Origin: Thelonectria olida | Taxonomy: Eukaryota; Ascomycota; Sordariomycetes; Hypocreales; Nectriaceae | Assembly: GCA_020736575.1 (NCBI GenBank) | Contig: JAGPYM010000062.1 | Coordinates: 62,001-126,000, forward strand | Direction of reading: 5' to 3' | DNA: 64,000 nt | Part shown: one piece after another, positions 29,609 through 56,216 of the stretch | Position numbering within the stretch: position 1 is the stretch's first letter | Layout: each line of letters opens with the position of its first letter | Notes under the pieces: generated by a model | What the model was told of the DNA's origin: nothing | The model's input: only the letters and a program-made list of their open reading frames with translations | The model's database searches: none | Position numbers and translations under genes: made by a program

Positions 29609-30012
29609 TGTAACGGTCAGGTCGATCTCCAACAGGTAGACTAGACTGTTCTAGGTTTATGTTGGCAGAGAGGACAGGACGTTAAGGTCTGAGCAGTGCG
29701 CAAAGGTAAACAGAGGGGGTTGTTACGTCTGGTAATGTGCTCAAAGTAGATGAGTGTAACCAAGTTGTATTGAAAGCTGAAGAGCTGTGTTCTATCTAAT
29801 GTGTTTAAAGGAATGTGTTTATATACTAAGTGTTCCTCCAGGGACCGATGAAGTTGAGGGATCGGTCCAGGGTAGGATCGTTGGGACCGTCGGTCGGTCC
29901 TCGTCGGTCCTTCGACGATGTCTTGCATAAGATCGTGAAAAAGTGGGGCTGTCTGCGGTTCTGCCGTCCCAGACCGCTTTGGTGGGAGTTGGGTCATGCA
30001 TGGGCCGTGACA
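29609..30012 (-). repeat. Gypsy-1 3' LTR (404 bp)
   Basis: Starts TGTAACGG and ends CCGTGACA on the plus strand. It contains a cluster of inverted GGACCG/CGGTCC motifs at 29841-29910. A plus-strand ORF begins 113 bases beyond its right edge, so this LTR could also drive antisense transcription. Confidence 0.95.
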
Positions 30013-30028
30013 CGATGTCTCCCCTCCG
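30013..30028 (-). other. Gypsy-1 polypurine tract
   Basis: On the minus strand GGAGGGGAGA lies five bases from the 3' LTR, the expected place for the plus-strand DNA primer. Confidence 0.6.
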
Positions 30029-30091
30029 TTGGTCTTGTCCTCAAGGCCGCATAAGTAGACCGTAGTCAATTTTCTTGTTGGTAGGTCAAAC

Positions 30092-30718
30092 TTGTTCCTT
30101 AAAACATTCCGTTATGCTGACATTATGTCCGGTCGCGTCTTGAAGCAAAAATCTTCTCGCAAATCGAAAGAGTGTGAGGCTCTTGCTCTGTACATTGACA
30201 CTTTTGGTTCTGAGACCATGCCTTGTTCTCGTTGTCATCGTCTGAAAATCTCCTGCAACACCATTGGGGATCGTTCGCACCGGTGTTCTAACTGCGTGGA
30301 GGCCAAGGTGGTTTGTGATGGTGCGGGAGTGGCTTCATTTCGTGGGTTTCTGAGTTCTTTTCTTGGTGGCTGGTCCTCGGCTGACTGCTTAGTGTCCAAA
30401 AACATGCGCGAGCGAAAACGCTTGGAGAGCGAGGAACTGGAGGCTGAGGAGGCGCTAGAAGCAGCGATGGCTCGTCTTGCTCGGATTCGAAAGCAAAAGC
30501 GTTTGTTGAAGAAGAAGGGGGAGGACCTGGTCTCTCGTGGTCTGCAGGGTTTGGAGGGGTCGGGTGTTCTGGCGCGCGAAGAGCCTGCGGCGGTGTCGGA
30601 GGCTGCGTCTCTGGGGGCTTTTGACCTTATCGACTGGAATGCCGTGGGTCTCGAGGAGTTTTCCTTTCCTTCTGCTGTTGTTGGTGAAAGTTCTTCAGCA
30701 GGCGCTGCACATGGGTGA
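30092..30718 (+). CDS. Antisense accessory ORF of Gypsy-1: zinc-cluster/coiled-coil protein
   Basis: This is an intact 208-codon frame on the strand opposite gag-pol, between the 3' LTR and the end of pol, overlapping the pol 3' end by 92 bases. The ATG at 30125 (MSGRVLKQK) may be the true start, giving 197 residues. Residues about 45-77 contain two modules of pattern C-x2-C-x6-C (CSRCHRLKISC and CSNCVEAKVVC), the Cys spacing of a Zn2Cys6-like binuclear cluster. A charged stretch follows (RERKRLESEELEAEEALEAA, then Arg/Lys-rich), very likely a coiled coil, and an acidic C-terminus. This could be a DNA-binding or regulatory protein encoded by the element. Coding character is not explained as a shadow of pol, since most of the ORF lies outside pol. 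Gypsy-2 has an ORF of the same design at the same position. Confidence 0.65.
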   Translation: MFLKTFRYADIMSGRVLKQKSSRKSKECEALALYIDTFGSETMPCSRCHRLKISCNTIGDRSHRCSNCVEAKVVCDGAGVASFRGFLSSFLGGWSSADCLVSKNMRERKRLESEELEAEEALEAAMARLARIRKQKRLLKKKGEDLVSRGLQGLEGSGVLAREEPAAVSEAASLGAFDLIDWNAVGLEEFSFPSAVVGESSSAGAAHG

Positions 30719-33700
30719 GGTGTTCAGGTGGTTCCCATGTATTTTCTGATTCAGTGTACCCTTTCCACTTGACGAGGTATTCTGTTTGTTTTGTCCCGTC
30801 GGGTCGTTCCTTCCTCATGCTGATGATTCGTTCCGCTTCGTATTCCTCGGGGTCCTCAATCTCTGTTTCTGGTTCGTCTCCTGTTTTGACCATGACTGTT
30901 CCTTCTGTTGACTCGAGTAAGGAAATGTGAAAGATTGGGTGGTGTCTTGATTTCAAGTCCAGTTTGTAGTTGTTTTCTGAGATTTTTTCCAAAATTTTGT
31001 AAGGTCCGATGTATTTGTAATCGAGTTTTTTGTTTGGTCGTTTTGTGTTGATGTTTTTTGTAGCGAGGAGCACCATGTCTCCCTTCGAGAAGGTTGGTCC
31101 CTTCAACCTTTTCTGGTCGTAGTATTTTTTGTGCATTTTCTGGACAAAAGAAAGTTCTGTGCGCATTTCTTCGTGCAAATTCTTGAGTTGATCTGATGCA
31201 AGGATAGCTGCTGGTGCAAGTGGTCCGTTCCGTGGTTCTCTGTAGGCGTCGGGGGTGAATCCAAAGTTTGCGTAGCTTGGTGTGATCTTGGTGCTTTCGT
31301 TGGTTGCAGTGTTGTAGGCCAGTTGTGCTGTTGGCAGTTTCTCAACCCAATCATTTTGGATGTGGTTGATGTAGCAACGAAGGTAGGTTTCCAAGACTTG
31401 ATTCATTCGTTCGGTCTGTCCGTCGACTTGTGGTCTCCAAGCGGTGGTCAACTTGTGGTTCAGTCCGATCCTTGCCATGAGGCATTGCCAAAAGTTCGAG
31501 AAAAAGGGTGGTCCTCTATCCGAGATGATCGTATTGGGTAGTCCGTGTGTGCTGACGATATTTCGTAAAAAGATGTAGGAAAATTCTTCTGCGTCGGTTG
31601 CTTCTTGATATGGAATAAAATAGGAAATTTGGTGAGTCTGTCGACAATGACTAGAATGCTGTCGTAGGCCGTGCTCGTAGCAGGGTCTAATGATAGGGGT
31701 AATTTCGTAATGAAGTCCATAGTGATTGAATCCCATGGTCGTTCCGCGACCGGTATGGGTTGTAGTTCTCCGTAAGGTTTGTGTCGTCGTGCCTTTGTCT
31801 TGTCGCAGATGAGGCATTGTTTGATGATTTTCTTGACTGTTTCTTTGACTCTAGGAAATGAAAATGTCGTCTTGACTCGTTCGAGGGTTTTGTTGATTCC
31901 TTGGTGTCCGTGGAGCGGGTGTTCGTGGATTTCCCTTACGAGTTCCTCTCGTAGGTGTTCCGGTACTTGTTGCTTATCTGTTTTTTCGTCGCTCGGTAAT
32001 TGTTCGTTGTATTCCAGGATTTGTTTGAGTAGTGGATTTCCCTGTTCCACTGTGTGTGTTGCTGCGAGGGTGTTGCTGACAGGGGTTCTTCCTATCATCC
32101 TCGGGGTGAGGCCTTGGTTCTTTAGGCACTGATCGCAGTGGAGGTAGTTGTTTGGTCCAGCTCCTTCCCACCAGAAATTCTCGTTGAAGAAATTCCAGAA
32201 TTGTAGGTCGTCCCATTTCTTGTGGTGTTTGACGGTTTGATGACAGTGTTCGATGAATTCGTTTCGTATTTTCCGGGGTAGGTAGATTGTTCCTTGGTAG
32301 GTGATCATTCCTAATACCGAGTTGACCCAGTCTGCTCGTCCGATGATGAGTTGTCTGAGTTCGTCTCTGGTGATTGACTGTCTGATGCGTTCCGTCCATT
32401 GTTTTGTCAAACATTCGGGGATGCGTTGGGCGAGGGTGGTTGCGATGTACTTCTGTCTTAAGTGTCCTTCAGGCGTAAGGGTTAACAGTTGTTCCTCTGT
32501 TTTGACCTTGCCTGTGTCGAAATCAGGTCGTCGGCTGATGGCGTCGGCTCTGCCATTCTCCGATCCTTTCTTGTGCTTGATGATGTAGTCAAATTCTGAT
32601 AGGTATTCGGCGTATCTGAGTTGTCGTCCGCTGAGTTGTTGAGTGGTAGCGAAGTGAGAGATGTTCTTGTGGTCTGTGTAGACCGTGACCTGGTGGTGGC
32701 TTCCTAGTAGGTATTGTCGGAATTCTTTGAAAGCTTGGACTATCGCGAGGAATTCTTTGTCGTAGATGGGGTAGTTGAGTTCTGCTCCGTGTAACTTATG
32801 AGAGTAGAATGCGATTGGGTGCAACTTTCCATCATCGTCGCGTTGTCCGATCTGGGCTCCTAGGGCGAAGTCTGAGGAGTCCGTTTCTAGTTCGATAGGT
32901 CGTGTAGGGTCAAACATCTTGAGTACTGGTTCGTTAAGGATGAGTTCCTTGATTTTGTCGAAGGCTTGCTGGATGTCGGGTTTCCAGGTGAACGGTCGAT
33001 CCTTCTTTGTTAACTCAGTGAGTGGTGCGGCTAGTTTCCCAAAATCCTTGAGGAACTTGCGGTAATAGTTCGCGAATCCTAGGAAGGCTTGTACTTCCTT
33101 GACTGACTCTGGTTTCTTCCAGTCCTTGACTGCTGAAAGTTTCTTTGGGTCCATTCGTATCTCGTTGTGGGAGATGATGTGTCCCAGAAATTCCACTTCC
33201 GAGGCGTGGAAATGACTTTTCTCTGGTTCAACTAGCAGTTTGGCGTCTTCGAGAGCTTGCAGTACCTTGTGGACGTGTTCCGTGTGTTCTTCTTCCGTCC
33301 TGGAGAAGATGAGGATATCGTCGAGGTAGCATACCACGAATACGTCTAGGTATTCTCGTAACACGTTGTTAATCATTCGTTGGAATGTTGCCGGTGCATT
33401 GGTGAGACCAAAAGGCATAACAAGATATTCGTAGAGTCCGAACTTCGTTCTGAAGGCGGTTTTCCATTCATGTCCTTCTTTGATGCGGATGAGGTTGTAG
33501 GCTCCCTTCAGATCTAACGCGGTGAAGTACTTCATCCCGTGGAGTCGGTCCTTCAGTTCGTTGATCAAAGGTAAGGGTGTTCTGTCCTTGACGGTAATGT
33601 CGTTGAGCCTGCGGTAATCCACAACAAGTCGGAGCTTTCCGTTCTTTTTGGGAACGAACATGACTGGATAGCCTGCTTCTGACTTGGAAATCCTGATATA

Positions 33701-34741
33701 TCCTTTCCTTAACATTTCTTCGAGGTAGTTCTTGAGCTCGTGCAGCTGTGCTTCGTTGAGGTTGTAGATGGGGTGGAACGTGGTTGATGTTCCGTCTTTG
33801 AGCCAAATCTCGTGATCCCATTGAGAATGCTCTGGTAGACCTGTTTCCAGTTCTTCGGCAAACAGCTTCTCGTATACTCTGTACTGTGCTGGTACGTTCT
33901 TGAGTCTGTCGTCAGATGGTTCCTTCTGTTCTTTGAGGTCTTCGTTCATCTGTGCGAATGTCTTCTTGAGGAATGCGATTGTTCGTCGTGTTTGTTGCGC
34001 TTGCCCTTTCTTGTGTTTGTGTCGTGTTCCTTTTGGAGGTTGTGTTTTCTCCGTAGGTTGGGGAGTGTCTTCGTTGTTGCTCCGCCGTACTTCTTCGTCC
34101 TCTTCGATAGAAGTTTGAGATCTCGTGTCGTCTGAATCGTTGTCCGTATCGTTGGCTGCATTACTTCGAAAAGCTTGCACCTGGCCAGTACGCCAACTGA
34201 TAAGGGGGTCATATCGGTAAAGCCATGGGTAACCTAGGAGTAGGTCGTATCCTTGGAGAGGTATGATGTCGAGATCAACTCCCTGATTCTTTCCTTCGAT
34301 GAACACCTTGAGGTGATCAACCTCGCGAGTAACTTGTCCATCTTCGTACTCAAATGGTTTTCCTTCCACATCAGATATCCCGTAGGGTATGTCCTTGTCC
34401 TTCCATGGTAGCTTGAGATGATTGACTACTCGTGGATCAACTCCATTCATCTCTGCTCCGCTGTCTACCAACGCGGTAAACCATTTTCCCGTGATTCGTA
34501 CTTGCAGCATCATCCGTCGTCGTGGTGATGTTTCGTGGGGCCTTGTTGTCGCGCATAGAGCTCTTCTTGGAGGTTCTGCAAATTTCTCCTGCTCTGGCCG
34601 GTCCTGTGGCTCTTCTACAGGCGGCGCTTGTCGTTTTTTGACTTTCCTTGTACGTCCTTGACCCATTGTCCCACTGTCTCGTTTCGTGAGGCGGGTACGT
34701 GGTGTGGTCGTGTTGGTCGTTTCGGGTGTTTGACGTGCCAT
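30627..34741 (-). CDS. pol: Gypsy-1 Pol (protease, RT, RNase H, integrase, chromodomain) with one frameshift
   Basis: Pol is read from the -1 frame relative to Gag. From its first Met at 34741, the domains are: protease with DSGAE (about residue 90), reverse transcriptase with CYLDDILIFS (about residue 470), RNase H beginning ELETDSSDFALG, and the integrase zinc-binding region (HPLHGHQGINKT, CLICDK). The frame is lost near 31622-31626, within the integrase catalytic core just after DRLTKF. The next frame continues YFIPYQEATD, ISDRGPPFF and RPQVDGQTER. It ends in a chromodomain (EYLVKWKGYTESENTWEPPE) before the stop at 30627. The shift is explained by one missing base. Apart from it every catalytic motif is intact. 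It is either a recent mutation or a base-calling error. Confidence 0.9.
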
Positions 34742-37455
34742 TGTTCAATTTTCTCTCTTTCGTGGACCTTACACTCTTCAAATCGGCATTGTCGTAGGTC
34801 GTACGTTCCGTTCATGCATTTGGTTGGGAATTCGTGGGTGTAGTTCTCGAAGATGGCTACGTTCATGTGCTTGATCCAGGCTACATTGCGTCGAAATTGT
34901 AAGTGCTGGGCTTGGTACCATCGCGTGATAGCATGTGGTCCTAATCGTGTAGGGTAGCAGTCGTTCTTGACTTTGTACCGTAGGTGTGGTTCACATGTTG
35001 GGTCGTAACATGAGATCCATGAAATGGTGTTGTGCTCCGGGTGAGTTGGGTTCACAATAGGTGCATCGTTGGGGTGAGCTTGATAGCTTCCTTGTCCTTT
35101 TTGGGCTTGCCGGTGTGTGATGCCGTGCACATAGAAGTCTTCATTGTTGGCGTTCTGCCCTTTCGTGACCTTCTGGTAAACCAGTCGTTTTTCTTCTTCT
35201 GGGTTACTGGCTTCATCTGAGCTCGTGTCGTCCACTGAGCCGTTGTCTTCCTCAGGGATTTCTCCTTCCTCGAGGGGCTCATGGTTTAGTGTTTGTCGCG
35301 TGGGGATATCGTCGGTGAGCGAGTTCGGGAATACATGCCATGTGGTGACAGGTAAGCCGAGTTCTTGGGCTCGTTCCAAATCCGATAGCATTAGGAATGG
35401 TTCTGGGATGTCGTTTCCGTTCTGGAGTGTGAGTTCTCGTTTCACGAGGTTGACTAGGTCTTGGTCCGCAGGGCTTAGGTCGAGGTCTTTAATGGTTGCT
35501 CGGTTCTTGGTGTGTCGGCTTGGTTGCGGATCCGTTGGTTGATCGTCGGGCGGCGCGTGCCATGACTTCGTTGCTTGATTGGGTGCTTGCGCGTATCCCG
35601 TCGCTTCCTCGTTGTCTTTTCGGCTGGTCTTGCCTTTCTTGACCATTGCGAGAATCTTCGTGTTTCCGTGACCAGTGACGTTGGTCTTTGGTGGTTCGGG
35701 GACTGGTCTCCATGTGGCGTATTTGGCGATACTCTTCTTGCTCAAGTTGGCTCGGGCGTCGTCTTGACTTAGAGTGTCGTTGTCGTCGTGCTCGGCTTCC
35801 CTTAGCCCCTTGTACAGGCTTCGAGATGCTAGGAGTACGGTGCCACTGGGAACTCCTCCGTTATCGTAACCGCTTCGCGTCATTGCCAGGGTCTTCTTCG
35901 GAATGTTTTGGTTGGGTTCCGCGTCGTGGGGTGTGTTGGTTGGTACTTTCACCCATTCTTCGTTTTCGCGGAGTTGGTAACCTTCCGGACAGGTCTCGCT
36001 GTGTGCGGTGAGTTGCACTTCCTGTCTTTCCTTCTGTTGGGGTTTGCGGGGGTAGTATCCATTGTCTTTGCCGTCTTTGTGGATGAGGCAGTTGTCATCG
36101 TAACAAGCCGTCCAGTGCAACGAGACGTGTTCCTTAGGGTCAAGGTACTTGTTGATTTTGCCGTCTATGCAGACGATGCAGTCTTTGCTGTCCGTGCACG
36201 TCGCTCGGTGTTCCAGGGCGTGTTCTCGTCGCAAGGCGTGGTTCACTGGTTTGGTTGTGAACATACCGGTTGCTGCCAGGGTTCTGGTGGCTGTCCTGAT
36301 TGCCATTTGGGGTTCGTCCTGTCGGTTAGTGTTACTCAGGCGTTTCTTACCTTCTGGGACAGGTTTGAACTTCTGGTTCGTCTTGTTAGGGTTTCGGCAC
36401 TTGCTTTCGAAATGTCCCTTCTTCCCGCAGTTCCAGCAGAGGACTTGCGAGTGGTCGCGTTTGGTGGCGCCGAGTTCCATCGGGCCTGAATCCGTGCCGT
36501 AGGAAGTGTGTCCTTGTCGCTGTCTTCCTTGGTTGGCGTTGTACCGGGGTTGCTTGTATCGGTTGTTGTTTCCGGTATTAGGGCTCTTTTTCTTGCGCCA
36601 TGAGAATTGTCTGTCGTCGATCTTGACCGCTTGTCCGATGTACTCGACAAGGGTTGTTGGCCGTTCGTGTTTGTACAGTTCTTCCTGGACTGATTGCTTG
36701 AGTCCGTCGAAGAAGAGTGACATGAGGACGTCCTGGTCCCAAGGTAACTTGATCGCAAGTTGGGTGAACAGGGTTCCATAGTCGGATGCCGATCCAGTTT
36801 GTTTGAGAGATTTGATCTGATCTTCGGCTTTAGATTTTTCGTCGATGGTTCCAAAAGACTGTCTGAGTTCTTGTTCGAGTGTGGCATAGCTTCCGTAGAT
36901 GCGTCGGGTTCGTTCGTCTCGTTCGACTTCCGGTTTGTCGTGGTAGTTCCGCATGACGGGCTCAAACCACAGAGCTGCGTTTCCAGTGAATCGTCCGGCT
37001 GCGTAGTGAACTTTGGCGGCTTCGAATCGGAATTGGGTCGGGTAGTACGAGAAGAAGGCATTCATGCTGGTGATGAACATTTGGAGCTTGCGGGCATTTC
37101 CGTCGAACTTCTCAGGTGCAGAGGGCTTAAGGATTTCTCCGGGGTCACGTCCAGTGGTGGCAGTAGTGGCGAGGTTGTTGAGGTCGTTGGTTTGGTTTCG
37201 TTGCAGTGTTTGTTGATCTTGCTGGATGGCGAGAATTCGGTTGATTTCGGCTCGCATGGCTTCGACTTCGAGTCGTTGCACACGGAGTTCGCCTTCGTGT
37301 TGGATCTGCATGTTGCGTATGTCTTGTCTGAGCGCCTCGACTTCCTCGTCGTCGTCATCCTCCATTTCGTCGTCAGTAGGAGGTGTGGGGTTAACAGGCG
37401 GGTTGCCTTGCTGTCCCTGGTTGAGATTGAGTTGCTGCTGTTGCTGGGTGGCCAT
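34615..37455 (-). CDS. gag: Gypsy-1 Gag with zinc knuckle and long Cys/His-rich extension
   Basis: This is a 946-residue frame starting MATQQQQQLNLNQGQQG. Residues about 20-80 are acidic with a coiled-coil-like segment. Residues about 115-300 are the capsid-type retrotransposon Gag domain (APEKFDGNARKLQMFITSMN). The zinc knuckle CWNCGKKGHFESKC is near residue 340. Unusually for Gypsy Gag, about 590 more residues follow. They hold repeated Cys/His modules: TCTDSKDCIVCIDGK (about 418), ACYDDNCLIHKDGK (about 447), SCYDPTCEPHLRYK (about 813) and QCRFEECKVHEREK (about 892). Between these are charged, disordered segments. The stop at 34615-34617 lies inside the pol frame. The extension could bind nucleic acid or zinc; its role is unknown. 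Confidence 0.9.
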   Translation of the reverse strand: MATQQQQQLNLNQGQQGNPPVNPTPPTDDEMEDDDDEEVEALRQDIRNMQIQHEGELRVQRLEVEAMRAEINRILAIQQDQQTLQRNQTNDLNNLATTATTGRDPGEILKPSAPEKFDGNARKLQMFITSMNAFFSYYPTQFRFEAAKVHYAAGRFTGNAALWFEPVMRNYHDKPEVERDERTRRIYGSYATLEQELRQSFGTIDEKSKAEDQIKSLKQTGSASDYGTLFTQLAIKLPWDQDVLMSLFFDGLKQSVQEELYKHERPTTLVEYIGQAVKIDDRQFSWRKKKSPNTGNNNRYKQPRYNANQGRQRQGHTSYGTDSGPMELGATKRDHSQVLCWNCGKKGHFESKCRNPNKTNQKFKPVPEGKKRLSNTNRQDEPQMAIRTATRTLAATGMFTTKPVNHALRREHALEHRATCTDSKDCIVCIDGKINKYLDPKEHVSLHWTACYDDNCLIHKDGKDNGYYPRKPQQKERQEVQLTAHSETCPEGYQLRENEEWVKVPTNTPHDAEPNQNIPKKTLAMTRSGYDNGGVPSGTVLLASRSLYKGLREAEHDDNDTLSQDDARANLSKKSIAKYATWRPVPEPPKTNVTGHGNTKILAMVKKGKTSRKDNEEATGYAQAPNQATKSWHAPPDDQPTDPQPSRHTKNRATIKDLDLSPADQDLVNLVKRELTLQNGNDIPEPFLMLSDLERAQELGLPVTTWHVFPNSLTDDIPTRQTLNHEPLEEGEIPEEDNGSVDDTSSDEASNPEEEKRLVYQKVTKGQNANNEDFYVHGITHRQAQKGQGSYQAHPNDAPIVNPTHPEHNTISWISCYDPTCEPHLRYKVKNDCYPTRLGPHAITRWYQAQHLQFRRNVAWIKHMNVAIFENYTHEFPTKCMNGTYDLRQCRFEECKVHEREKIEQWHVKHPKRPTRPHHVPASRNETVGQWVKDVQGKSKNDKRRL
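34633..34639 (-). promoter_or_regulatory. Programmed -1 ribosomal frameshift site (A AAA AAC)
   Basis: On the minus strand the heptamer AAAAAAC sits in the Gag zero frame as TCA AAA AAC, 15 bases before the Gag stop. Slipping one base back gives AAA AAA CGA, which is the pol frame (VKKRQAPPVEEP). A GC-rich stretch (GCGCCGCC) follows within ten bases and may contribute a stimulatory structure. Confidence 0.75.
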
Positions 37456-37499
37456 GTTGACAATTCTCGATATTGCTCAGGGTAACGCGGTATCCTTCT

Positions 37500-37517
37500 G
37501 AACAAGAGCTTTCAACG
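37500..37517 (-). other. Gypsy-1 primer-binding-site position
   Basis: The 18 bases next to the 5' LTR on the element's strand read CGTTGAAAGCTCTTGTTC. They lack the TGG expected at the border for priming by a CCA-ended tRNA. An unusual tRNA fragment or self-priming is possible; I cannot assign the primer. Confidence 0.35.
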
Positions 37518-37921
37518 TGTAACGGTCAGGTCGATCTCCAACAGGTAGACTAGACTGTTCTAGGTTTATGTTGGCAGAGAGGACAGGACGTTAAGGTCTG
37601 AGCAGTGCGCAAAGGTAAACAGAGGGGGTTGTTACGTCTGGTAATGTGCTCAAAGTAGATGAGTGTAACCAAGTTGTATTGAAAGCTGAAGAGCTGTGTT
37701 CTATCTAATGTGTTTAAAGGAATGTGTTTATATACTAAGTGTTCCTCCAGGGACCGATGAAGTTGAGGGATCGGTCCAGGGTAGGATCGTTGGGACCGTC
37801 GGTCGGTCCTCGTCGGTCCTTCGACGATGTCTTGCATAAGATCGTGAAAAAGTGGGGCTGTCTGCGGTTCTGCCGTCCCAGACCGCTTTGGTGGGAGTTG
37901 GGTCATGCATGGGCCGTGACA
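37518..37921 (-). repeat. Gypsy-1 5' LTR (404 bp)
   Basis: Identical by eye to the copy at 29609-30012 and followed by the CTAGG target duplication. Confidence 0.95.
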
Positions 37922-39950
37922 CTAGGTCTAAAGGAAATATTATTTTAATAGACCTTTTAACTATATATAGCATTTCTTATAAAAAGGGCACTATAAGTAT
38001 AATATTATATTCTAATAATTATATTAATATACTAAGTAAAATAATAGTTAAGCTTTTTATTAGTAATATTTAAATTAAATAGAGAATATATATTATACTA
38101 TTAGAAAGAGTTTTAATTAGCTTTATTTTAAGTATACTATTTATTAAATTAGTAAGAGTTTTATTTAATTATTTATTTAAGGATAATATAATATTATTTT
38201 AATATTAATTGGGTAATATATATATTATTACCCCTATTATAAGTAATATTTATTAGAAGCCTTTAAAAATAGGCTAATATTCTTAAGTATATAAAATGAC
38301 TTTTTATAATATTAATATTTTCTCTACTTGCAATTAGAACTAATATAATAATATACTATTATAAGAAAATATTTATGTAATTAAATAAATTTTAAAAGAA
38401 GGAGTTATAAATGTGCTCTTAGCTATTACTAATTATATTATTAAAAAATATTTTAATATACTTTAGGAGGCTAAGGACGAACTGCAATTTCTTTATATAG
38501 GCCCTTAGCTAGGCCAGAAGGTTATTAAAATTAATACTATATATAAAGAGAAAAAACTAAAAGTTTACCTACTTAATAATATTCTATTTAATAGAACTAT
38601 TCCTAAGGGAGATCCTTACTAGAAAGAGAAAAAATAAAATAAAGTTATATATCTATTAAATAAGAACTTAAACTATACTAACTATATTATATTAAAATTC
38701 TCCAAATTAAAACTAGAATCTTATTTTAATACTAAAAGACTTTAAGCTTTAACTAATTAAGTCTCTAATATATTAACCCTAAAAGAAATTAACATTTTTT
38801 ATTAAATATTATTTAACTAAGAAGCTGCTTTAGTATAGGAATTTAAGTATTATAAATTAGTTAACCCTATTATTACACCCTTGCAAGTTATTAAAGTTAT
38901 TAAATATAAAGCTTAGTAAGTAGGTAGTATTCCTATTCTAAAGGGAGCTAAAGGACTAGCTATTAACCTACTTAAAACATATATAAAAAGAAGGATTTTA
39001 AAGGAAGAATATATAATATATAGGAATCCTTAGTTTCTTATTTAAAAGAAGGATAAAAGCTATAAATTAATTAATTTAGCTATATACTATAATAGGTATA
39101 CCCTTTGTAATGCCTTAAGCCCTATGGGAGCTAAGGAGTTTTTTAAAAACTTTAAAATATGCAAAATCCTCTCCTTACTTAACTTCTTTTCTAAATATAA
39201 CTAAGTTCTACTAGATAAGAAAAGCCAAAACTTAACTATATTTAATATACCAATTAGCCTTTTACATATATATATATTATTTTAAGGAGCTACTAATTTA
39301 ATAGCACAGTTTATTTAAATTATTACTTAAATTCTATTTAATCTTATTTTATATATTTATTAACCCTTTTTTAATAATATTATAATTAAAGGACCCATAA
39401 CTAAATATAAAGGAAATAAGGTTATGCCTAGGGTTTATTAATTTGTCCTTAAGCATCTAATTAATATTAATAACATGCTTTTTAATATTAAATTATCTAA
39501 ATATACTATTTTAGGAATAAAGTCTAAGTTTTACTAACTTATTATAAAGGATGCGCCTCTTCCTAACCTATTAACTTCCCTTATTAATAAAATTGCACTA
39601 TTATTTAAGGGAATTATAGCTATTAATAGAGCTAGATATATTAATATAATAAACAATATTATTCTCTAATATAAAGATTAAATTAATTAAATAGGTTCTA
39701 AGTATTTTATAAAGAAAATAATTAAAGAATTTACTAATTGTATTAAATTACTTATTATTATAAATAGGTCCGTCTAGTATATTAAATAATCTAATATATA
39801 TGCTTTATATATGCCTGCTAGTATAATTAATTCTAATACTTAAGCAAATATTTATAATATAATTAGTTTATAATAGGCTGTAACTTTATTAGTAAAAGAG
39901 CAGAAGTTTATAAGGGATACTTAAATATAAAAATGTTAAAATTAATAAGA
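37922..39950 (+). pseudogene. Gypsy-3 protease/reverse transcriptase relic, RIP-saturated
   Basis: The protease frame starts left of Gypsy-1 (AIINTR at 29588-29608, formerly AxIDxG) and continues at 37927 (SKGNIILIDLLTIY). Further on the RT reads, with stops as Gln: PILKGAKGLAINLLKTYIKR, YRNPQFLIQKKDKSYKLIN, LSLLNFFSKYNQVLLDKKSQ, LTIFNIPISLLHIYILFQGA and TNLIAQFIQIITQILF. The catalytic pair expected as F-I-D-D is FFNNIIIKGP (about 39367-39395), so both Asp have become Asn by G-to-A change. The frame goes on through KVMPRVYQFVLKHL to about 39900. RNase H and integrase are not recognised. This is the oldest element in the window. Confidence 0.7.
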
Positions 39951-45784: not shown

Positions 45785-45789
45785 AAAAC

Positions 45790-46240: not shown

Positions 46241-46264
46241 TTCTGGCCCCACTATATTAGCTGT

Positions 46265-46345
46265 TAATATAATAACAACTCCCTCTCGTTTCTTCTTTAT
46301 TTTCCTTCCTTTCCTTCACACTTTCCTTCTCTTCCGTGGCGCTTT
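46265..46345 (+). promoter_or_regulatory. Pyrimidine-rich tract upstream of the antisense ORF
   Basis: A nearly pure C/T stretch with CTTCCTTTCC-type runs, as often seen around transcription starts of fungal genes, precedes the spliced antisense ORF of Gypsy-2. Confidence 0.4.
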
Positions 46346-46540
46346 CTCTTCCTTTTCCTTTGCGCTTTCTAACCTCGGCTTCTTCTGTTGCGAACATCCT
46401 CCTGGCTCTTCCGTCGCTCTTTCTTCCGACCGCTTGCTGCCCCCTCGCCGCTAACGTCATTTATCCTCCCCGTCTTCCGGCTATCCCCTCCTCGCACAAC
46501 ATCTCGTCCCCCGCTCTCCCCCCCCCGCCCCCGTATCGCT

Positions 46541-47640: not shown

Positions 47641-47819
47641 ACGCCCCTCCCCCTCCCCAGGCCTGACCGTCCCCGCCCCCGCCCCCAACCCGCCCCCGCC
47701 CCGCCCCGCGTCCTATGCGGGTTTCTACCGTCATATATAAGTAGTTTAGTTTATTATGGTTAAAGAGATTTTCCGTCAGTGCCGTTATGCATGCAGCCTG
47801 TTATTTATCTTCGCGTTCC

Positions 47820-49241
47820 CCCATTCCGCCTCAAACTCATCTAGTGCTAGTATGTCTTTAATATTCTCTAATAGTACCCACATTAGGTTATCGTATCCTT
47901 TCCACTTTACTAACACCTACTAATATCCACCTCGGCCGCGTGCGTTCTTTACGGCGAGGATCTTCTTAATATAATATTCTTCCTCCATTTCTCCCGTATC
48001 TTCAGAGGGGACCCACTTGGGGTCCGGGCGTAAATCCAAAAGGACCTAGGAAGGCAACAGGTCGGCCGCGGCCCGCTCTACTAAGTCCATATAGAAGGTC
48101 TTATATACGTCGCCTGGCACGTTAAGAATGACATTTAAGGCGTCTTTTAGCCCTACTACTATATATTTAGCATATTTCTAATTTAGCTTCTTACTCGGCC
48201 GGTTTGTTATTATATTTCATAGTAATAGCCACACCCGGTCGCCAATCCGAAATCGCTCCGCTAGCCTCTGGGATTTTTATATGGACTCCTATTGCCATTA
48301 TTATACAAATGCGATTGCAGCTTATGCGAGTTCCATGCCTTCCCTTAAGTGGGTATGGAATACTACTGCCCGCCCCTTTGGCGACAAGCAGCTTGCTTCT
48401 GGGTAGTCCACCCGTTAGATAAGGTCCATATTATAGCTATTAAGGAGCTTATTTGGGCTCATCCCCGTGACTAATAAGTCCCTATTGTTTAGCTTTAGTT
48501 ACATGGCGGCGAGGTGGTCCTTCCAGTCTAATTAAGAGAAGGCAACAACTACACGCAAGACTGCTTAAATCTCCTAATTTGCTCGCTCCGTCCCGCCGTC
48601 TGTCTCTAGGTGGAAGGCTATAAATAGGAGTTATTCGACCCCTATAAGTTTATAAAGTATGGCCTAGAACTTTCCAACCCAGTCCGACCCTCTATTACTA
48701 ATAATCTATAATAGGAATCTATAGAAACGCCACCAGCAGTCCCTAAATTGCTCTACACACGCCTCAGCTGCTATTAACATTATGGCCTCCAGCTGGATGT
48801 ATTTAGAGAGACAGTCTATAATAACCATTAGGTATTATAGGTCGTCCTTCTCTTTTACCGGCAAATCCACCATAAAGTCAACTAATATTTATAACTAGTA
48901 TCTATCCGCAATAGGCAGTAGTCGGAATAGTCCTTAGCGCCGGCGTCTTGAGTTATGGCTGCCAACGCAATAGCAGTTTCGAACTAGCTGCACAACTTTT
49001 AATAACATTCCGTCCTAATAGTAATCGCATTATAGAGTGAGGAAGGTTATATTCTTCCCAGCATGACCTATTACTTTATAGACCTATTATGCAATTATTA
49101 TTATAAGCGGCTCCCATATAGGGATCTAGAGGCAGTCCCGGTATATAAGCGCTCCTTGTGCATTTAGCCCGCAATCTACAATCTATTCCATTATAGTGGC
49201 TTCCTTTAAGAATTTCCTCTATCCATTCCATACAGTAAGGG
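47820..49241 (-). pseudogene. Gypsy-2 integrase core and chromodomain, RIP-damaged
   Basis: On the minus strand, with stops read as Gln or Trp, the frame gives VDFMVDLP, LMVIIDCLSKYIQLEA, AEACVEQFRDCWWRF, ISNRGSDWVGKF, HLETDGGTERANQEI and MSPNKLLNSYNMDLIQRVDYP. This is a Ty3/Gypsy integrase core in which the second catalytic Asp (ISDRG) is Asn. Near 47850-47950 comes VLVKWKGYDNLMWVLLENI, a chromodomain. At least ten in-frame TAG/TAA codons occur. The upstream part is cut off by the hAT insertion. Confidence 0.8.
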
Positions 49242-49249
49242 CCCGGGCC

Positions 49250-49365
49250 CATACCTGGGCGTTTGAGTTAACTCATGAGTTTCGACCCTTTTAACTCACT
49301 CATATGAGTTACGGCCTAGCCATAACTCACTCATGAGTTTAACTCAGACTCATGAGTCAACTCAC
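49250..49365. repeat. hAT left terminal and subterminal repeats
   Basis: The left TIR is followed by at least six ACTCAT or TGAGT units, including palindromes AACTCATGAGTT and ACTCATATGAGT and one TGAGTCA. These are likely transposase-binding sites. Confidence 0.7.
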
Positions 49366-49452
49366 CTATAATGATCATGTGACATCGCCAGCTTCCCAAA
49401 TAGGAAGTTGGTGATAAGAATCTATGGTATTGAAGTGCAGAAAATCGCCGCG

Positions 49453-51725
49453 CTATTCAATATCACTAATTTCTATATCAATATCATCATTAGCAATGTC
49501 CGGATCACATACTAGCCCCAGCCCACCGTGCCGAGTCCCGACAATATGCCCATTCCGCATCCAGTTGCCGAGACACTCAACTTCCTGCAGCCGCTCGCAC
49601 GTCATCGACAGCCGGTCCCATGATGCGGTCCTACGAGCGCCTGAGAAGGTCCTTTCTGGCTCTGCCGACTGAGGGCTTATCGAGAGTATATCGATGGCCA
49701 TACGGCTAAGGCGTGGAAACTGCCGTCGTTGTTCAATGCGACACCACCACTCCAGAGGTTTGCAATCGATCTTGACAGCCGGAGAATTAATAAATGCGTC
49801 TAGGTTATCGCCATCGGTTGAAAGAGCCGTCTCGACCTCCATCTCCTGTAGCAATAGCTGTAGCTGCGAAGGCGGCTTCCCCGGCGCAGCTGGCATATCC
49901 TCCGGAGTAGTTTCTATGTCTCCATCGATATTGGTATTGTATTCCTCCTCCCATATTTGCCGGGCTCCCACAATCGCTGGATTAATCCACGCACTCTTCC
50001 AGTTCTTATCCAAGTATGCTTTTCGACAGCGTGGATCGAGAAGAAGAGCGGCGACGTAAACGGGAGCCTCATCAGACATAGAGTAGTATTTATCGAGTAC
50101 AAACCATCCCATCTCGATAGAATGGAGCATACGGCTATCATGGAACTCCGGGGTCGAGTAGTGTATCTAACAAATTAGTTAAAGGCTGTCTCTTTAACGG
50201 AGATAGACCTTACCTTCGCTTTCTCAAAGTGGCTGAGAAGACCATCCATCAGCCGCAGCGTACTGCAGAGGCTCGCTTTATCGCCTTCTGTTATCAAAGT
50301 TGCCTCGGTAAAGGGCTGGAGGAAAGTATGCGTTTTCGACAGTATATCCCAGTCGGCGCCTGATAGAAGATGAGCACAGCCGATGTCCTTGTCATGGTCT
50401 ACCATAAACTGGACGATCTGTGCCTTCTTATCGAGGGCGACACTGATAACTTTATACCATGAGGACCACCGTGTTGCGTTATCGATCCCGAGACTGCGAC
50501 CCACAGCTTCGCGCCAGTTATCACTATGGATTGGAGAGCTTCCAATCCAGACTGCGAGATGGTGGAGCTTCTGGAGAGCATTAATGCCTTCCCATCCGCT
50601 AAATTCTAATTGCTGAGTAGTCCTCTCTCTCGTCGGAGGTCTCTGCTGTCTCCCCTGGTTCTCCTCTGATGTGTGATCCACCGTGGTATCGGGTCCTGAA
50701 AGCGTATTCTCATTCAGAGCAGTAGAGAAGGTTTCGATAGACTGCGCACCAGCGGCGTTGCCGGCGGCATTAAGGGCAGCGCGTAAAGCTTCTTTCGAGC
50801 GCGCGAGAAGGAAAGCTTGAAGGGAAAGGTTAATAATATGGCCGAAACAGCGGACACGGCGGCGGACAGGATCGAAGATTATCTAGACGAAACTCAGCTG
50901 GCACAGCCATAGAAATTTATCTTTACTTACTCCTCGCCCGTGAAGTAGCTTCTTTGATAAAGCTTCTAGGCAGGTATTGTTCGAGGATGCGTTATCCCCA
51001 GTATGATAACCCACGCGTCGAATTTCGAATCGCCCCAAGACATCAGCGATCAGGCCGGCCTGGGACTCGCCAGAGTGGTCTTTTCGACACTCTAGCAGAC
51101 CTAGAAGCGCCTTTCGAAGTTTATAGCCCTTATCGACCCACTGTCCGCATACTGCAAGCATACCATGTCGGTGTGGTGATGTCCAGAGATCAGATGAGAG
51201 GTGAATCATCGAAATGGCAGATTGAAGGGACTCGGCCAACTGAGCAGCGTAGAACTCATAGCTAGCTGAGATGTAGCGCATCACTGTACGTCGGGAGGTA
51301 ATCAGACTATCCTCGATGGCAGGATTACATGCTAGTGCTAGGTCCTTTATCTCATCCCACTCAACCATCGAAAAGGCCACTCTGCGACGTGTGAGAAGGC
51401 TGATAAGAGCTTCGATGTAAGCCTGTCGATTGAAGGCATTCCGTAATGCCGCTTCGGATGGCGTAGTCGATGATGTGATATATACGTCGAGCGATTGCTG
51501 AGATTGATTCTGCCGGCTAGAGAGCCCGATCAGATATGGATGATTATTCCTTATGTGGCGCCGCGCATTGCCCTTATAGCCATCCTTCCATGGCTTCGCC
51601 GTACAGTATAAGCAGACATATAAAGTGCGAGGCTTCGCCTTCTCTCTGGTGAAAAATCTCTCAATATCGATGAAGTCGGGGGCGGAAGAGGGTGTCCTCG
51701 GTACAGACGAAGTTTCGGATGCCAT
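49453..51725 (-). CDS. hAT-family transposase
   Basis: Three exons (51725-50931, 50882-50214, 50166-49453) are separated by 48-nt and 47-nt GT-AG introns and give 725 intact codons. Both introns fall between codons, and exon lengths are all multiples of three. The N-terminus holds a BED-type zinc finger (LYVCLYCTAKPWKDGYKGN, then RRHIRNNH). The middle has the hAT catalytic region (SSDLWTSPHRHGMLAVCGQW, GYHTGDNASSNN with the acidic residue, and CFGHIINLSLQAFLLARS). The C-terminus has the dimerisation region (PLEWWCRIEQRRQFPRLSRM, SPQSAEPERTFSGA). It should excise and reinsert DNA flanked by the element's TIRs. No stop, frameshift or missing motif is seen, so this copy may be active. Confidence 0.93.
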
Positions 51726-52187
51726 GGCGATGGCTTGATGGTATAGATAATGGATCGAGGCGATGAAGAGTCTGCCGATAAATCGTACTAGAAACTGCAG
51801 TAGCTACTCGGAAGACTTTTTTTACCTTAAGATTCTTGTCAATTTCTGATGGATCTGGATCATAGGGATAGAAGCTCTTGATTCTCTATCTAATGAGTGG
51901 AAACAGGTCGGTTTCTTATACATAAGATGAATTGGTCCTCCGGGGCCGTTGTGTTTAAGAACTTGCTTTTTGGGAGACATAGGTGATACCAACCACTGAC
52001 GGGAAGTCCGGACTTCCGGGCTGCCGGTCTGAACTGCCTGTCTGAACTGCTGGAAGACCTTCCTTCCGGTTTGATCAAATGTATGACCCTTTGGTCTGTT
52101 GGATGTGATAATTCTGAATATAGAGGGGTTGCGATAGATTAGATTAGATTATAGAGCGGGCTAATCAGACGCCAGGAACGCCGTTGT

Positions 52188-52311
52188 GAGTTTATGAGTT
52201 AACTCATGAGTTAGCAGCGATAACTCAGACTCAACTCATATGAGTTTTATGAGTTAGAGTTATGAGTTAACTCATGAGTTAGGTTTGAGTTAACTAAAAT
52301 GCCCAGGTATG
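52188..52311. repeat. hAT right subterminal and terminal repeats
   Basis: A mirror cluster of TGAGTTAACTCATGAGTT-type units (52195-52290) precedes the right TIR, ending GCCCAGGTATG. Confidence 0.7.
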
Positions 52312-52639
52312 CCCGGGCCCTATAAGTCTCATTTCCTTATACCGCTTGGTCCCAAAGGGACTATAGGTGCGCATCTGCAAAAATCATATTTCCTACTAGC
52401 AGCTGCCATTACTCCTCCGCCTAAGCTCCCTCCTCAGGCGCTAGTTATAATTATACCGCTTCTTACACTATACGCAGGGCGCTCCCTTATAGCATGCCCT
52501 GCACTATTATCCTACAAATCCGGATCGGCTATATTACCCAGCCCGTCCGCAGTTCGTTATCGCCTGCCTCCTGCTCCCTCCAAAAGAGGGCATTAGGCCA
52601 GTATGCCTCCAATCCCGGCCAATACTTCAGAATATAATT

Positions 52640-54180
52640 AAATAGCAATAGAGTCTCTACCTAACGCGCTTGCCATTCGGAGATAAGCCTTAGCTTAATA
52701 AAATACTCCAAGTTCTTATAATCTATTAGAATAACAAATGGGTTAGCCGCGCCCCAGAGCTCTAACAACCATACTAATAAGCAAGAGATAACAGCTAGCA
52801 GCTCCTTATCGTAGATTATATAGTTTCGCTCGGCTGCCAAGAGGCAGGCGGAGTGGTAAGCTACTAGGCGCAAAACGCCCTTCGCGTCAACCTGTAAGAG
52901 GCACCCTCCTAACGCCTGCCCCAAGCTGTCTGCTTCCACAATTATATCCCTCTCTAGGTCCCATTAGGCAAGGACCGGGTGCAAGATAAAAACGGTTTTC
53001 ATCCTCTCAAAAGCATTATCCTCCTCCTCCGTCCAGCGGAAAGGCACTCCCTTCTTAGTAAGACGGACTAGGGGGCTAACAATCTCTAAGAAGTTTGGAA
53101 CGAATTCGCAGTAGAAATTGGCAAATCCTAAGAAGCTTCGCACTCCTCTTACTTTCATTAGTGGTTCCCATGCCTATATTACTAAAATCTTTTCGGGGTC
53201 GGGGCGGATAGCAACTCCTGCCTCCACAATAAAGCCAAAATATTTAACCTCTTTCACTACAAACGCACACTTATCTAAGTCAATATTCAAGCCTATATCG
53301 CAAAGGCGTTCGAGCATTGCCCGAACCTTCCCCATATGGTCGTCCCGGCTGCCCCCAGAGTAGACTAGCACATCGTCCAGGTATACCATCACAAAGTCCC
53401 CAAGGGAAGTCCCTAGCGCCTTATTAATATACTATTAGAAGGTCGCTAGCGCCCCCGACAAGCTAAAAGGAGTAACTAGCCATTCGAAGAGGCCGAACCT
53501 CATTCGGAAGGCTATTAAATACTTATCGCCTTCGGCCACGCATATGCAATAGAACGCCGCGCGTATGTCTAGTTTTATAAACCAGTGCGCCCCGGAAAGA
53601 GAACGGAGGGTCTTTCTAATTAGGGGTAAAGGGTAGCGGTCTTAGGATATGATCTTATTTAGCGCGCAGTAGTCCATATAAAACCGCTAGCCTCCATTCG
53701 CCTTCTTTACAAGTAGGACTAGTACAGCTGCCGAGGAGGCACTCGCCCGAATCCATCCCTTATCTATAAGGTCCACAATCTGCTTCCGTAGCTCAAGTAG
53801 ATAGTCCCTTGATATACTATATAATAGGCCCTATAGTAGTTCCGGGTCGCGTCCGTCCGGCCCCTTCTTCAGCCAGATGTAGTGGTCGCTTGTTCCCTGA
53901 TGCAGGGGGAGGGCGGATGCCTTCTCTTTATTAAAGAGATCGGCAAATTCCCGGACCTCCTTAGGCAGCCTCCTGAGCAGGTCCGCCCGCCTATCCTCTA
54001 CTACTATAGCGCCTGCATCCTATATCTCGCTTGCAGTAGCTTAAAGTACTATTATAATCTTGTGGATGCTTATAGAAAGGAAGGACAACTTGACCTCCCC
54101 CCGTTTTATCTCCCGTCGGAGGAGGGCGGCGAAGACCAAACCTATAACCCTAGTCGCTTAGATCCCAGATAATCGCGCTA
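52640..54180 (-). pseudogene. Gypsy-2 reverse transcriptase and RNase H, RIP-damaged
   Basis: From about 53920 down, the minus strand reads (stops as Gln or Trp) HQGTSDHYIWLKKGPDGRD, LRKQIVDLIDKGWIRASASS, LVKKANGG, YMDYCALNKI, RYPLPLIRKTLRSLSGAHWF, IKLDIRAAFYC, MVYLDDVLVYSGGS and FLGFANFYCEFVPNF. RNase H follows: VEADSLGQALGGCLLQVDAK, IYDKELLAVI. RT Asp residues (LDI, YLDD) survive. Several TAG codons and small gaps break the frame. The order and spacing are those of Ty3/Gypsy pol. Confidence 0.85.
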
Positions 54181-54189
54181 CAGATTCCT

Positions 54190-55970
54190 TCACGACCTGT
54201 CCTCCCGCGTCCCTAATCTCTAATTTTCTGCATTTTAGGATAATGCGGATGTCCCGGTGTTCCATCTAAGGGAGTCCTAAGATCGCATCCCATATAAGTC
54301 CCGGGACCACATAGAATAGGGCTAGGCACTTCCAGCCATCGATATCTAGCAAGGCGCGCGCTATTTGTATGATCCTCCGCTCCCGATCTATCCCTACTGC
54401 CGCGCCCAGGCTTCATAGCGTAGACAGCCGGACCTATTCCAGGCCCAGCCTCTGGGCTGCTCGTTCGCTTATCGCACTATAGCAGTCACATCCGGAATTA
54501 ATAAGGACATTAAGGAAACCCAAGTTATTAAATAGAATTAGGACCGTTAATAAGGGTCCGTCCATCCAGTTCTCTATCTCTTATTCCTCTTCTACTATCA
54601 TTTCCCTTATCTCCTCCAGTATATTCCCATCCCCTTCTATAACTAACCCTAATAGTGCGATCGGCAAGCTGGCGTTCCGCCCCTATGCGAGACTTAGCTC
54701 GGGGGCGTGACATTTCCCTCCTCTCCTAAATCCAACTCCTTATTAATTGCCACTAGGTCGATATAGACGCGCTGGATGTTTATTGGCCGTCTTGCCGCAA
54801 GTAAGGTGCAGTCGCTAGCATAGTGCTCGTTAGATCCGCAGTAGAGGCACTCGCCCTTCTCCCTTCGCGCGTTAAGGACAGTTTGGGGGACCCATTACGC
54901 CCGTTTCGCCTGGTTTCTAGAGGTCGGGGAGGCTCTGCGGGATCCTTAGCCCCTAGCGCCCCTGCCGCCTCAGCTGCGAACCGTCCTGGTCGTGTTTACG
55001 CCTAATATCGGCATGTCCCCTTCCTAGTCTATTGCTAGTAGTAGCGCGGCTATGCTCCTTCCTAATGCCAGCCGCGCTTGGTGCCTCTCCTCTAACTTAT
55101 AGGACTCGATCTCAGTCGCTACCTCTCTATACGCGCGGAGGGCTACTTTATAGTTAGAACGGTCAATTCCTTTGCCCAGGCAACATTCCTTCATCTTCCT
55201 ATTCAATACGCCACGGAGCCGGAGCAACTTGCTTTCGCCCGACCACTTTAAACCCCCCGCTTGGGCTAGAAGCTGCTTAAATTGCTAGTAGAAGTCGCGG
55301 AATGTCTCGTTCTTCCCTTATTAGATATATTATAAATCTAAAAGGGCTTCCTCCTTCTTATAATCCGTAGGGTAAAAGAATACAATATACTTAATAAACG
55401 CCCACAGGTTATATGCGCCATGCTGCCCGCCCCTTTCGTAGTACACCCTAACCTTAGGTCTAACCTTGTCCGTAATGGCCGTCTAGATGTAGAAAAATAT
55501 ATCCTTCTTATCCCCGATAAAAACCTAATTTGCATTTAACTTATGTGTAATTATTAATTGCCAGGCTTTAAATATTACCTTATCGCTATCGAACGGCAGT
55601 TCCCTAGGTAAGGGTTTTCAGGCTAGTCGAGGTTCTTAGGGCGGGTTCGGCGTCGTTCCAGTCGTTATAGGAGTAGTTCGTGGACGGGGAGGCACTGCCT
55701 GTGATCTGGGGCAATCCCCGTCCTGGGCCCGGTCCTTGCGGTGCGCGGCTTCCAGTCGCTCCTATCGGTCGTAGAGTTATTGCCACTAGTACTACGAGGA
55801 CTCCATATAAGCATTAAAAGTTCTTTATAGGGCTATTAATATGCTAGCAACATCTGGGGTTCCTTTTGAAGCTGGGGTGGACGCCCCTTGCGTCCATTCT
55901 GCCGCTAGTGCTATTAGGGTTGGGGCCCCCTGTGGCCACTCCCCCTCCTGGCTTGGGTTAGCTATTATAA
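54190..55970 (-). pseudogene. Gypsy-2 Gag and protease, RIP-damaged
   Basis: The Gag capsid part is readable near 55230-55500 (ETFRDFYQQFKQLLAQAGG, then SGESKLLRLRGVLNRKMKEC). The zinc knuckle CLYCGSNEHYASDC is intact near 54810-54850. The protease near 54480-54520 reads VLINSGCDCYSAISERAAQ, where the catalytic Asp (IDSG) is Asn. The start (about 55770) is Gly/Pro-rich (GATGSRAPQGPGPGRG). Stops at former Gln and Trp codons occur throughout. Confidence 0.7.
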
Positions 55971-55984
55971 TAAAGTTTATTAAT

Positions 55985-56216
55985 TATAATAGACTGGCCC
56001 TAGGGCGTCTGTAAATAGGTATTAATTATAATATTAATAAACTTAAAAGGAAAGAAAGCTCTTCCCTTTTAATATACTCTAAGGCTTTACTAATATTCCC
56101 ATATCACATGACCTAGCCCTTATGCTCCCTATTATACACGTCCGCTCCAGGTGCGGGCCGCACGCGTGTCGCACGCGTGCATAACTAAGATACGGGCGCA
56201 GCCCGAATCCATAATA
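55985..56216 (-). repeat. Gypsy-2 5' LTR (232 bp)
   Basis: Partner of 45790-46021. It shows more T/A at CpA positions than the other copy and is followed by the AAAAC target duplication. Confidence 0.9.

Follow-up and report, generated by a model that had tools for sequence, protein, structure and literature searches.

An antisense gene for a putative Gal4-type regulator beside family-specific half-site arrays in the long terminal repeats of a fungal chromovirus

The window analyzed here, a 64,000-nucleotide stretch of the Thelonectria olida genome (G000:C125:62001-126000), holds two gypsy-type retrotransposons, Gypsy-1 and Gypsy-2, both with the minus strand as sense strand. In Gypsy-1, which represents family F1, an intron-containing gene lies on the opposite strand between pol and the 3′ long terminal repeat (LTR), and the U3 region of this LTR carries repeated half-sites directly upstream of its TATA box. 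Judging from sequence, we propose with a probability of about 0.6 that the gene encodes a dimeric regulator of the Gal4 type, probably an activator, which would bind the half-sites in the element's own U3. Gal4-type activators combine a Zn2Cys6 array with a coil and an acidic tail and recognize pairs of half-sites, often containing CGG, upstream of TATA boxes. It is the meeting of such a protein plan with half-site pairs directly upstream of a TATA box that suggests binding of the antisense protein to its own U3 as a dimer, and activation.

The antisense gene of Gypsy-1 and its protein family

The antisense open reading frame (ORF; 30125-30718, plus strand) comprises 197 codons between pol and the 3′ LTR of Gypsy-1, with its ATG about 110 bp past the LTR. 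It consists of exon 1 (30125-30341), containing the MSGR start and an array of six cysteines, a 51-nt intron (30342-30392) with GT-AG borders and a branch-like GCTGAC, and exon 2 (30393-30718), which encodes a probable coiled coil and an acidic DLIDWN tail and overlaps the end of the pol frame with its final 92 nt. The intron preserves the reading frame when unspliced, and the spliced product is 180 aa long. Except for its first residue, database protein P0002 is identical to a portion of the spliced protein and is not found within the unspliced frame; the 197-aa frame, which contains the intron, was rejected as the actual protein on the basis of this comparison. The source of P0002 is a 1791-bp contig tagged 'lgn', a tag presumed to denote an assembly of public reads. 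If the contig is accordingly derived from RNA, the antisense message is both made and spliced. Annotated relatives P0003, P0005, P0006 and P0007 have no residues at the intron site, and P0001 and P0004 retain the unspliced stretch. The intron would be spared by retrotransposition, since it lies on the strand opposite to the genomic RNA.

The cysteines of the window protein are arranged as CX2CX6CX9CX2CX6C, which agrees with the six-cysteine consensus spacing of Zn2Cys6 clusters, CX2CX6CX5-12CX2CX6-8C. The original prediction had described an antisense ORF with two CxxC cysteine modules in both elements. In Gypsy-1 the ORF was recovered, probably spliced, and the cysteines are present, but as the six cysteines of one Zn2Cys6-like array; the counterpart in Gypsy-2 proved to be a decayed gene spread over three frames. 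The intron, the Zn2Cys6 spacing and the LTR arrays of half-sites lay outside that prediction, and the arrays are the principal result.

A single-sequence search with the window protein returned seven relatives at E ≤ 1, and a search with a 10-row alignment returned at least 79 at E ≤ 0.01 among 8000 candidates scored, so that the predicted homologues in other fungi were indeed found. Named hosts are Fusarium, Trichoderma, Colletotrichum, Apiospora, Cordyceps, Akanthomyces, Hapsidospora and Metarhizium, all of which we take to be Sordariomycetes; many entries come without an organism. Several relatives are annotated as Zn(2)-C6 fungal-type domain proteins. The complete six-cysteine pattern is present in 36 of the 79, and of the 43 without it, 30 have fewer than 140 aa; some of the weakest of the 79 may be chance coiled coils. 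An alignment of 30 rows (A6), made of the window protein and 29 longer members hand-chosen from the 79 relatives, keeps the six cysteines in 29 rows (the exception being P0012), three of these with a first loop of eight residues. Its three prominent features are the cysteines, a helix of heptad-like pattern and a tail in which a DW motif recurs. Between two conserved positions the helix measures 17 residues in 10 rows, 24 in 3 rows and 31 in 17 rows. Length thus changes in whole heptads in all 30 rows, as expected of a coiled coil. In the 50-residue tail of the window protein, 8 residues are acidic, 2 are basic and 11 are large and hydrophobic.

Among the 30 rows the window protein has the best E-value to the Pfam family Zn_clus, and five rows reach E ≤ 0.01. 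No bZIP family appeared among its Pfam matches at E ≤ 10. A sequence search against solved structures gave three weak matches (E = 0.2, 0.37 and 0.97), two of them to coiled coils. In viral contigs, 53 stretches fit a pattern, none of which encodes a relative. The layout of the product, with a Zn2Cys6-type array, a coil and an acidic tail, would correspond to a Gal4-like plan.

In the whole genome sequence searched (52.5 Mb, 165 contigs), 36 matches to the antisense gene were grouped by position into 25 gene copies. An LTR of the same clade was present in the fetched locus for 24 of the 25, and the remaining copy (C22) sits at a contig end; the expectation that hits would lie beside chromovirus LTRs was thereby borne out in this genome. 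Seven F1 copies and eight copies of the related family F2 are free of stops, and many others are riddled with TAA and TAG, a state that repeat-induced point mutation would produce. Across the antisense exons (216 + 393 nt) of two F2 copies, C57 and C101, we counted six silent changes and one replacement change, where neutrality predicts about five replacements among seven changes. These counts are small, refer to 140 silent and 469 replacement sites and include the end of exon 2, which overlaps pol. Between F1 and F2 the counts give dN 0.91 and dS 1.66 for exon 1, and dN 0.54 and dS 1.03 for exon 2; the ratios lie below 1 but near saturation and depend on a protein-guided alignment, and we relied on the close F2 pair instead. 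The coding test across copies thus came out as the original prediction had anticipated, and its view of a conserved accessory gene, which we take as most likely that of a DNA-binding regulator, gains from the fungal homologues, the few replacement changes and the near-constant LTR adjacency in this genome.

The same data bear on the idea that the antisense transcript rather than the protein matters, by pairing with genomic RNA and feeding silencing. Such a role is one possibility put forward for plant antisense ORFs in the available text of PMC7264820. For the gene described here we consider it very improbable, given a protein conserved across fungi, silent changes favoured over replacements and a helix whose length varies in heptad steps.

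Half-site arrays in U3

LTRs of the Gypsy-1 clade carry repeated half-sites, largely inverted, directly upstream of the TATA box. The half-site is specific to the family: GGACCGA in F1, GGATCAC in F2 and GGTTCGA in F4. CGG is present in the F1 half-site and not in that of F2 or F4. Both LTRs of Gypsy-1 (3′ LTR, 29609-30012, 404 bp; 5′ LTR, 37518-37921) lie on the minus strand. U3 of the 3′ LTR begins at 30012, and its part down to the TATA box (29826-30012, minus strand) forms the family-specific block, with TATATAAAC starting at 29825 reading down. This block contains the dyad GGACCGAT-N11-ATCGGTCC at 29842-29868, which recurs at 37751-37777 in the 5′ LTR, and three further GGACCG half-sites (29884-29889, 29895-29900 and 29905-29910). 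F2 has the dyad TGGATCAC-N10-GTGATCCA plus a second one, and F4 has AGTCGAACC-N5-GGTTCGACT.

For each of F1, F2 and F4, the count of the top 6-mer in U3 was reached in 0 of 2000 shuffles, and after the TATA box the shuffles revealed no 6-mer excess in any of the three (P = 0.40, 1.0 and 0.995). Excess of 7-mers was likewise found for F1 (P = 0.0005) and F2 (P = 0). Inverted arms exceeded shuffles in F2 (best arm P = 0.034; number of arms 0/1000) and F4 (P = 0.006 and 0.009). Genome-wide, exact dyads of the F1, F2 and F4 type occur 21, 46 and 14 times, compared to 2, 0 and 2 matches of the reversed-pattern controls. As checked by LTR homology or sequence, 21 of 21, 45 of 46 and 13 of 14 dyads lie within LTRs of the clade, one of the 45 (C114) being only weakly LTR-like. 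The two exact dyads without an LTR match, of F2 and F4 type (C1:1794581 and C1:2232728), have gene-like surroundings by eye.

Further LTRs were collected by homology of the part after the TATA box alone, with 40 of 115 and 40 of 70 candidates scored in the first two rounds. A 6-mer excess at P ≤ 0.001 was obtained for 17 of 24 LTRs, three of which (F1, L073 and L078) are almost identical in sequence. Eight of the 24 LTRs did not originate from a motif search (L074, L075, L076, L077, L079, L080, L081 and L082, the last closely resembling the motif-found L064); here L074, L077 and L080 reached P ≤ 0.001, and the other five ranged from P = 0.078 to 0.93. A TATATAA-like box was not found in L075, L079, L080 and L082. 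Two additional half-site types emerged, GGAGCGA in L074 and L077 and GTGAACC in L080, the latter also in L081 (6-mer P = 0.078). When all are read on the same strand, the five types (GGACCGA, GGATCAC, GGTTCGA, GGAGCGA and GGTTCAC) fit GG[AT]NC[AG][AC], a pattern noticed post hoc, whose counts give P < 0.05 in 17 of the 24 LTRs.

Family F3 served as a control. It apparently has no room for an antisense gene, as its presumed LTR starts directly after the pol stop; the sequence common to three copies stops 200 bp on. No excess of 6-mers was seen in the 115 bp that precede its TATA-like box (P = 0.86), and a longer stretch gave P = 0.069.

Comparison of related LTRs revealed footprints at the half-sites. 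L058 and the F1 LTR are 67% alike over 316 aligned bp. In a 110-bp stretch, they agree at 30 of 30 half-site bases (five sites) versus 35 of 80 other bases (Fisher one-sided P = 3.6e-9). The pattern by which L058 was retrieved required two half-sites, those at 75 bp (among the five of F1) and 55 bp (not in F1) from the TATA box, leaving the other four free. F1 and L057 agree at 30 of 30 half-site bases and 65 of 80 others. For F2, the half-site agreement is 34 of 35 with L062 and 35 of 35 with L061, and that of other bases 54 of 75 in both comparisons. These three comparisons point the same way as that of F1 with L058, and the footprint has the look of sites kept by selection. Half-sites lie 85, 75, 64, 43 and 22 bp from the TATA box in F1, L057 and L058, and also at 55 bp in the latter two. 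By eye, this spacing is near whole helical turns, as if the sites occupied one face of the DNA.

Gene and U3 as a candidate module

The 3′ parts of F1 and F2 were compared per 100 alignment columns, the first block being unaligned. A pol stretch (32200-31101) is 91-100% identical, and identity falls to 85, 76 and 66% in successive windows of the chromodomain and to 41-64% across the antisense gene and U3, with 86 and 72% in two windows after the TATA box. F1 and F2 thus differ as one block made of the chromodomain end, the antisense gene and U3. The U3 regions of F1, F2 and F4 are unalignable in the part that precedes the TATA box, unlike the rest of the LTR, F4 sharing short pieces only. In L066 and L068, a U3 of F4 type is joined to an R/U5 98.5% identical to that of F2, and in L065 to an R/U5 91% like that of F1. 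The type of the antisense gene equals the type of U3 in all 24 typable loci of 26 (C30b and C91 gave no match).

These junctions bear on a reading in which host factors bind the U3 half-sites, the sites diversify to follow or escape them, and the antisense protein has another role such as nuclear import or integration targeting. LTRs commonly borrow host sites, and F3, in which no antisense gene was seen, has a palindrome at its LTR start as well (GGACTAGGC-GCT-GCCTAGTCC). However, sites that switch wholesale on a nearly unchanged R/U5, a gene and a U3 that diverge together, and exact dyads that are nearly absent elsewhere in the genome speak against host factors, and we regard this reading as quite improbable. 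The F3 palindrome counts against our own proposal, too. It indicates that a single LTR palindrome is not special, whereas the arrays and footprints are.

According to the mechanism we propose, a dimer of the antisense protein would bind the half-site array just upstream of the TATA box in U3 and most likely activate transcription. In the 5′ LTR, U3 would drive gag-pol; in the 3′ LTR, the same region read in the opposite direction would drive the gene of the factor itself, resulting in a positive feedback loop. Because U3 is present in both LTRs, the same sites could serve both transcripts. Gene and sites adjoin across the border of the 3′ LTR, so they could travel and diverge as one module, and one module could replace another on the same gag-pol backbone.

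The same anatomy would also predict binding by a factor that represses its U3 and thereby limits copy number and damage to the host. HBZ of HTLV-1 provides a precedent in the available text of PMC10186651: it is expressed antisense from the 3′ LTR, has a spliced form, is a protein of transcription-factor type with an activation domain and lowers sense transcription. It is retroviral and a bZIP rather than a Zn2Cys6-like protein. The F1 protein ends in an acidic DW tail that resembles an activation domain, and the half-sites immediately precede the TATA box; both would fit repression poorly. Among the gene copies, 7 of F1 and 8 of F2 are stop-free and nearly identical, which points to recent spread. 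Repression therefore appears unlikely to us.

An anti-silencing factor comparable to VANC of the Arabidopsis VANDAL elements, binding repeats in noncoding DNA of the element and removing silencing chromatin, is a rather unlikely alternative as well. As the accessible part of PMC5735166 describes, VANC is element-encoded and recognizes motifs repeated in the element's own noncoding DNA; its targets are often tandem repeats that differ between related elements, and related VANCs act on different elements. This is the pattern of the F1, F2 and F4 sites. VANC belongs to plant elements and acts in anti-silencing, whereas the Zn2Cys6-like plan, the acidic tail and the TATA-proximal sites would fit plain activation.

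Several observations weigh against a self-encoded Gal4-type factor. With regard to the protein, the match to Zn_clus (PF00172) scores 20.1 bits and remains below the curated cut-off of 21, support at the RNA level comes from one database protein, P0002, whose source is presumed to include RNA, and the F4 gene is represented by a single damaged copy (C120). Regarding the sites, the inverted arms of F1 are weak against shuffles (best arm P = 0.045; number of arms ≥ 7, P = 0.156), the 7-mer excess of F4 reaches just P = 0.019, and repeat excess may partly reflect tandem duplication. Seven of the 24 LTRs, including five of the eight not found by motif, lack a significant 6-mer excess, and L057, L058, L061 and L062 were retrieved by dyad pattern, so that one dyad in each was pre-selected. 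LTR adjacency of the antisense genes is known from the copies of this genome alone. The match between the types of gene and U3 is confounded because the two adjoin, and near-identical copies make up most of the 24 loci; type agreement alone is thus no proof of partnership.

A broader picture, whose chances we see as evenly balanced and which is likewise drawn from sequence, would be a widespread family of fungal LTR retrotransposons with an exchangeable cassette. This cassette would combine an antisense, intron-containing gene for a Gal4-type activator with its own activating sites in a U3 that acts as a two-way promoter. Half-sites evolving together with the protein would place related elements under separate control, whole cassettes would be swapped between elements, and the antisense orientation would let the intron survive retrotransposition.

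The elements of the window and known antisense genes

Gypsy-1 spans 29609-37921, with 404 of 404 positions identical between its LTRs and a 5-bp target duplication, CTAGG, on either side (29604-29608 and 37922-37926). As read from the sequence, a polypurine tract (30013-30027, minus strand) adjoins the 3′ LTR. The gag-pol frames (30627-37455, minus strand) comprise a gag frame (34615-37455), a frame containing the reverse transcriptase (RT; 31460-34741) and a frame with the integrase end and chromodomain (30627-31817). Pfam domains in them include gag, SH3_Tf2-1 and chromodomain. The chromodomain at the pol end (PF00385, 61.1 bits versus a cut-off of 25.1) identifies Gypsy-1 as a Ty3/gypsy chromovirus. 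In the window copy pol is split into two separate frames, whereas several other F1 copies have a longer RT frame (1372 versus 1094 codons). Direct repeat pairs flank the element (24748-25047/40116-40415 and 28721-29073/40909-41262, 91-98% alike), and judging by these it may have inserted within an older repeat. Elsewhere in the window, Helitron remains (12101-18328, plus strand) comprise a Helitron_like_N match of 143 bits and fragments of a PIF1 helicase, located in different frames, with a direct repeat inside (12445-12591/12598-12744).

Gypsy-2 (45787-56216) has LTRs of about 235 bp on the minus strand (3′ LTR, 45787-46021; 5′ LTR, 55982-56216) that are 92% alike, and its RT is interrupted by two TAG and two TAA; it is older than Gypsy-1. 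Pieces of a hAT-type transposase at 49453-51725 (minus strand; dimerisation domain 52 bits, zinc-finger match below the cut-off) belong to a nested insertion. A 43-aa piece of Gypsy-2 gave no chromodomain match in Pfam. Place and strand of the antisense region are the same in both elements, as had been predicted. The region (46373-47640, plus strand) is a decayed gene without an ORF, with a cysteine stretch, a linker, and an Arg/Glu-rich helix or coil with an acidic tail distributed over three frames (46373-46876, 46761-47381 and 47329-47640) and a possible intron at about 47292-47340. The cysteine stretch is directly followed by a stop in the window copy and the C116 copy alike; cysteine spacing is unlike that of F1, and one cysteine position is altered in the window copy. 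Querying with the cysteine end of C116 retrieved, from 187 candidates, three proteins at E ≤ 1. All belong to Drechmeria coniospora; their matches span 18-24% of the query and lie in the N-terminal motif, and by eye the proteins end in acidic tails.

The architecture said to be common to both elements was found in part. There is a resemblance, and in a profile comparison of the Gypsy-1 and Gypsy-2 proteins the six cysteines align, but not significantly (probability 2%, E = 0.023); another Gypsy-2 alignment yielded nothing relevant. One homologous gene shared by both elements was consequently rejected as a demonstrated result, and the Gypsy-2 counterpart could be either distantly related or an independent parallel. 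For the Gypsy-2 LTR the 6-mer excess was not significant (whole LTR P = 0.085; U3 of the 3′ LTR 0.064, of the 5′ LTR 0.945), and the spacer between gene and LTR gave P = 0.025 from purine-rich words. Palindromes resembling GCACGCGTGC occur in its U3 (45964-45984 and the 5′ LTR counterpart) upstream of a TATA-like box. A 53-bp tandem repeat of 2.4 copies (46110-46234) lies between antisense gene and 3′ LTR; plant Retand elements have tandem arrays at the equivalent place in the available text of PMC11963269.

Genes in antisense orientation beside the 3′ LTR have been described, as far as the accessible text of the sources goes, from fungi (PMC8365987, PMC7264820, PMC5987419), plants (PMC7264820, PMC11963269) and retroviruses (PMC10186651). 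The original prediction knew of no named family, which does not hold for the position of the gene: in Boty-like elements of Botrytis cinerea, an antisense gene between pol and the 3′ LTR was named brtn in 2011 (Zhao et al., as cited in PMC8365987 and PMC7264820). It shares with the F1 gene this place in a fungal gypsy element. The two could be compared by position only, as the description of brtn in these citing passages mentions neither Zn2Cys6 nor LTR sites, and none of the listed database relatives is named BRTN. TRP28 antisense ORFs of plant Retand elements also lie between pol and the 3′ LTR, with predicted DNA binding and a suggested regulatory role, but have a different domain, and LTR target sites are unmentioned in the available text (PMC11963269).

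Gal4-type factors share with the F1 system the cysteine spacing, the predicted coil after the cluster, the acidic tail and inverted half-sites upstream of the TATA box. The F1 protein differs from them in being encoded by a mobile element, very short and below the Pfam cut-off, and in half-sites that do not all contain CGG. In the titles and abstract openings of the open-access papers searched, nothing pointed to a fungal retrotransposon that encodes a Zn2Cys6 factor of its own or has LTR sites to match, Zhao et al. 2011 lying outside that scope. Two points are new as far as the literature searched shows, the Zn2Cys6-like identity of this family of antisense genes and the arrays of family-specific sites in the neighbouring LTR of the same element.

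The function of antisense genes in LTR retrotransposons is called unknown in the available text of a plant review and of a 2025 study on Retand (PMC7264820, PMC11963269). The F1 gene comes with a concrete candidate target a few hundred bases away, with several natural pairs of protein and site, and with a prediction of pairwise specificity. If the proposal is true, fungal retrotransposons would use self-encoded Gal4-type activators, as a counterpart, among retroelements, to VANC and the regulators of retroviruses, and would provide a collection of small DNA-binding domains for which candidate sites are known.

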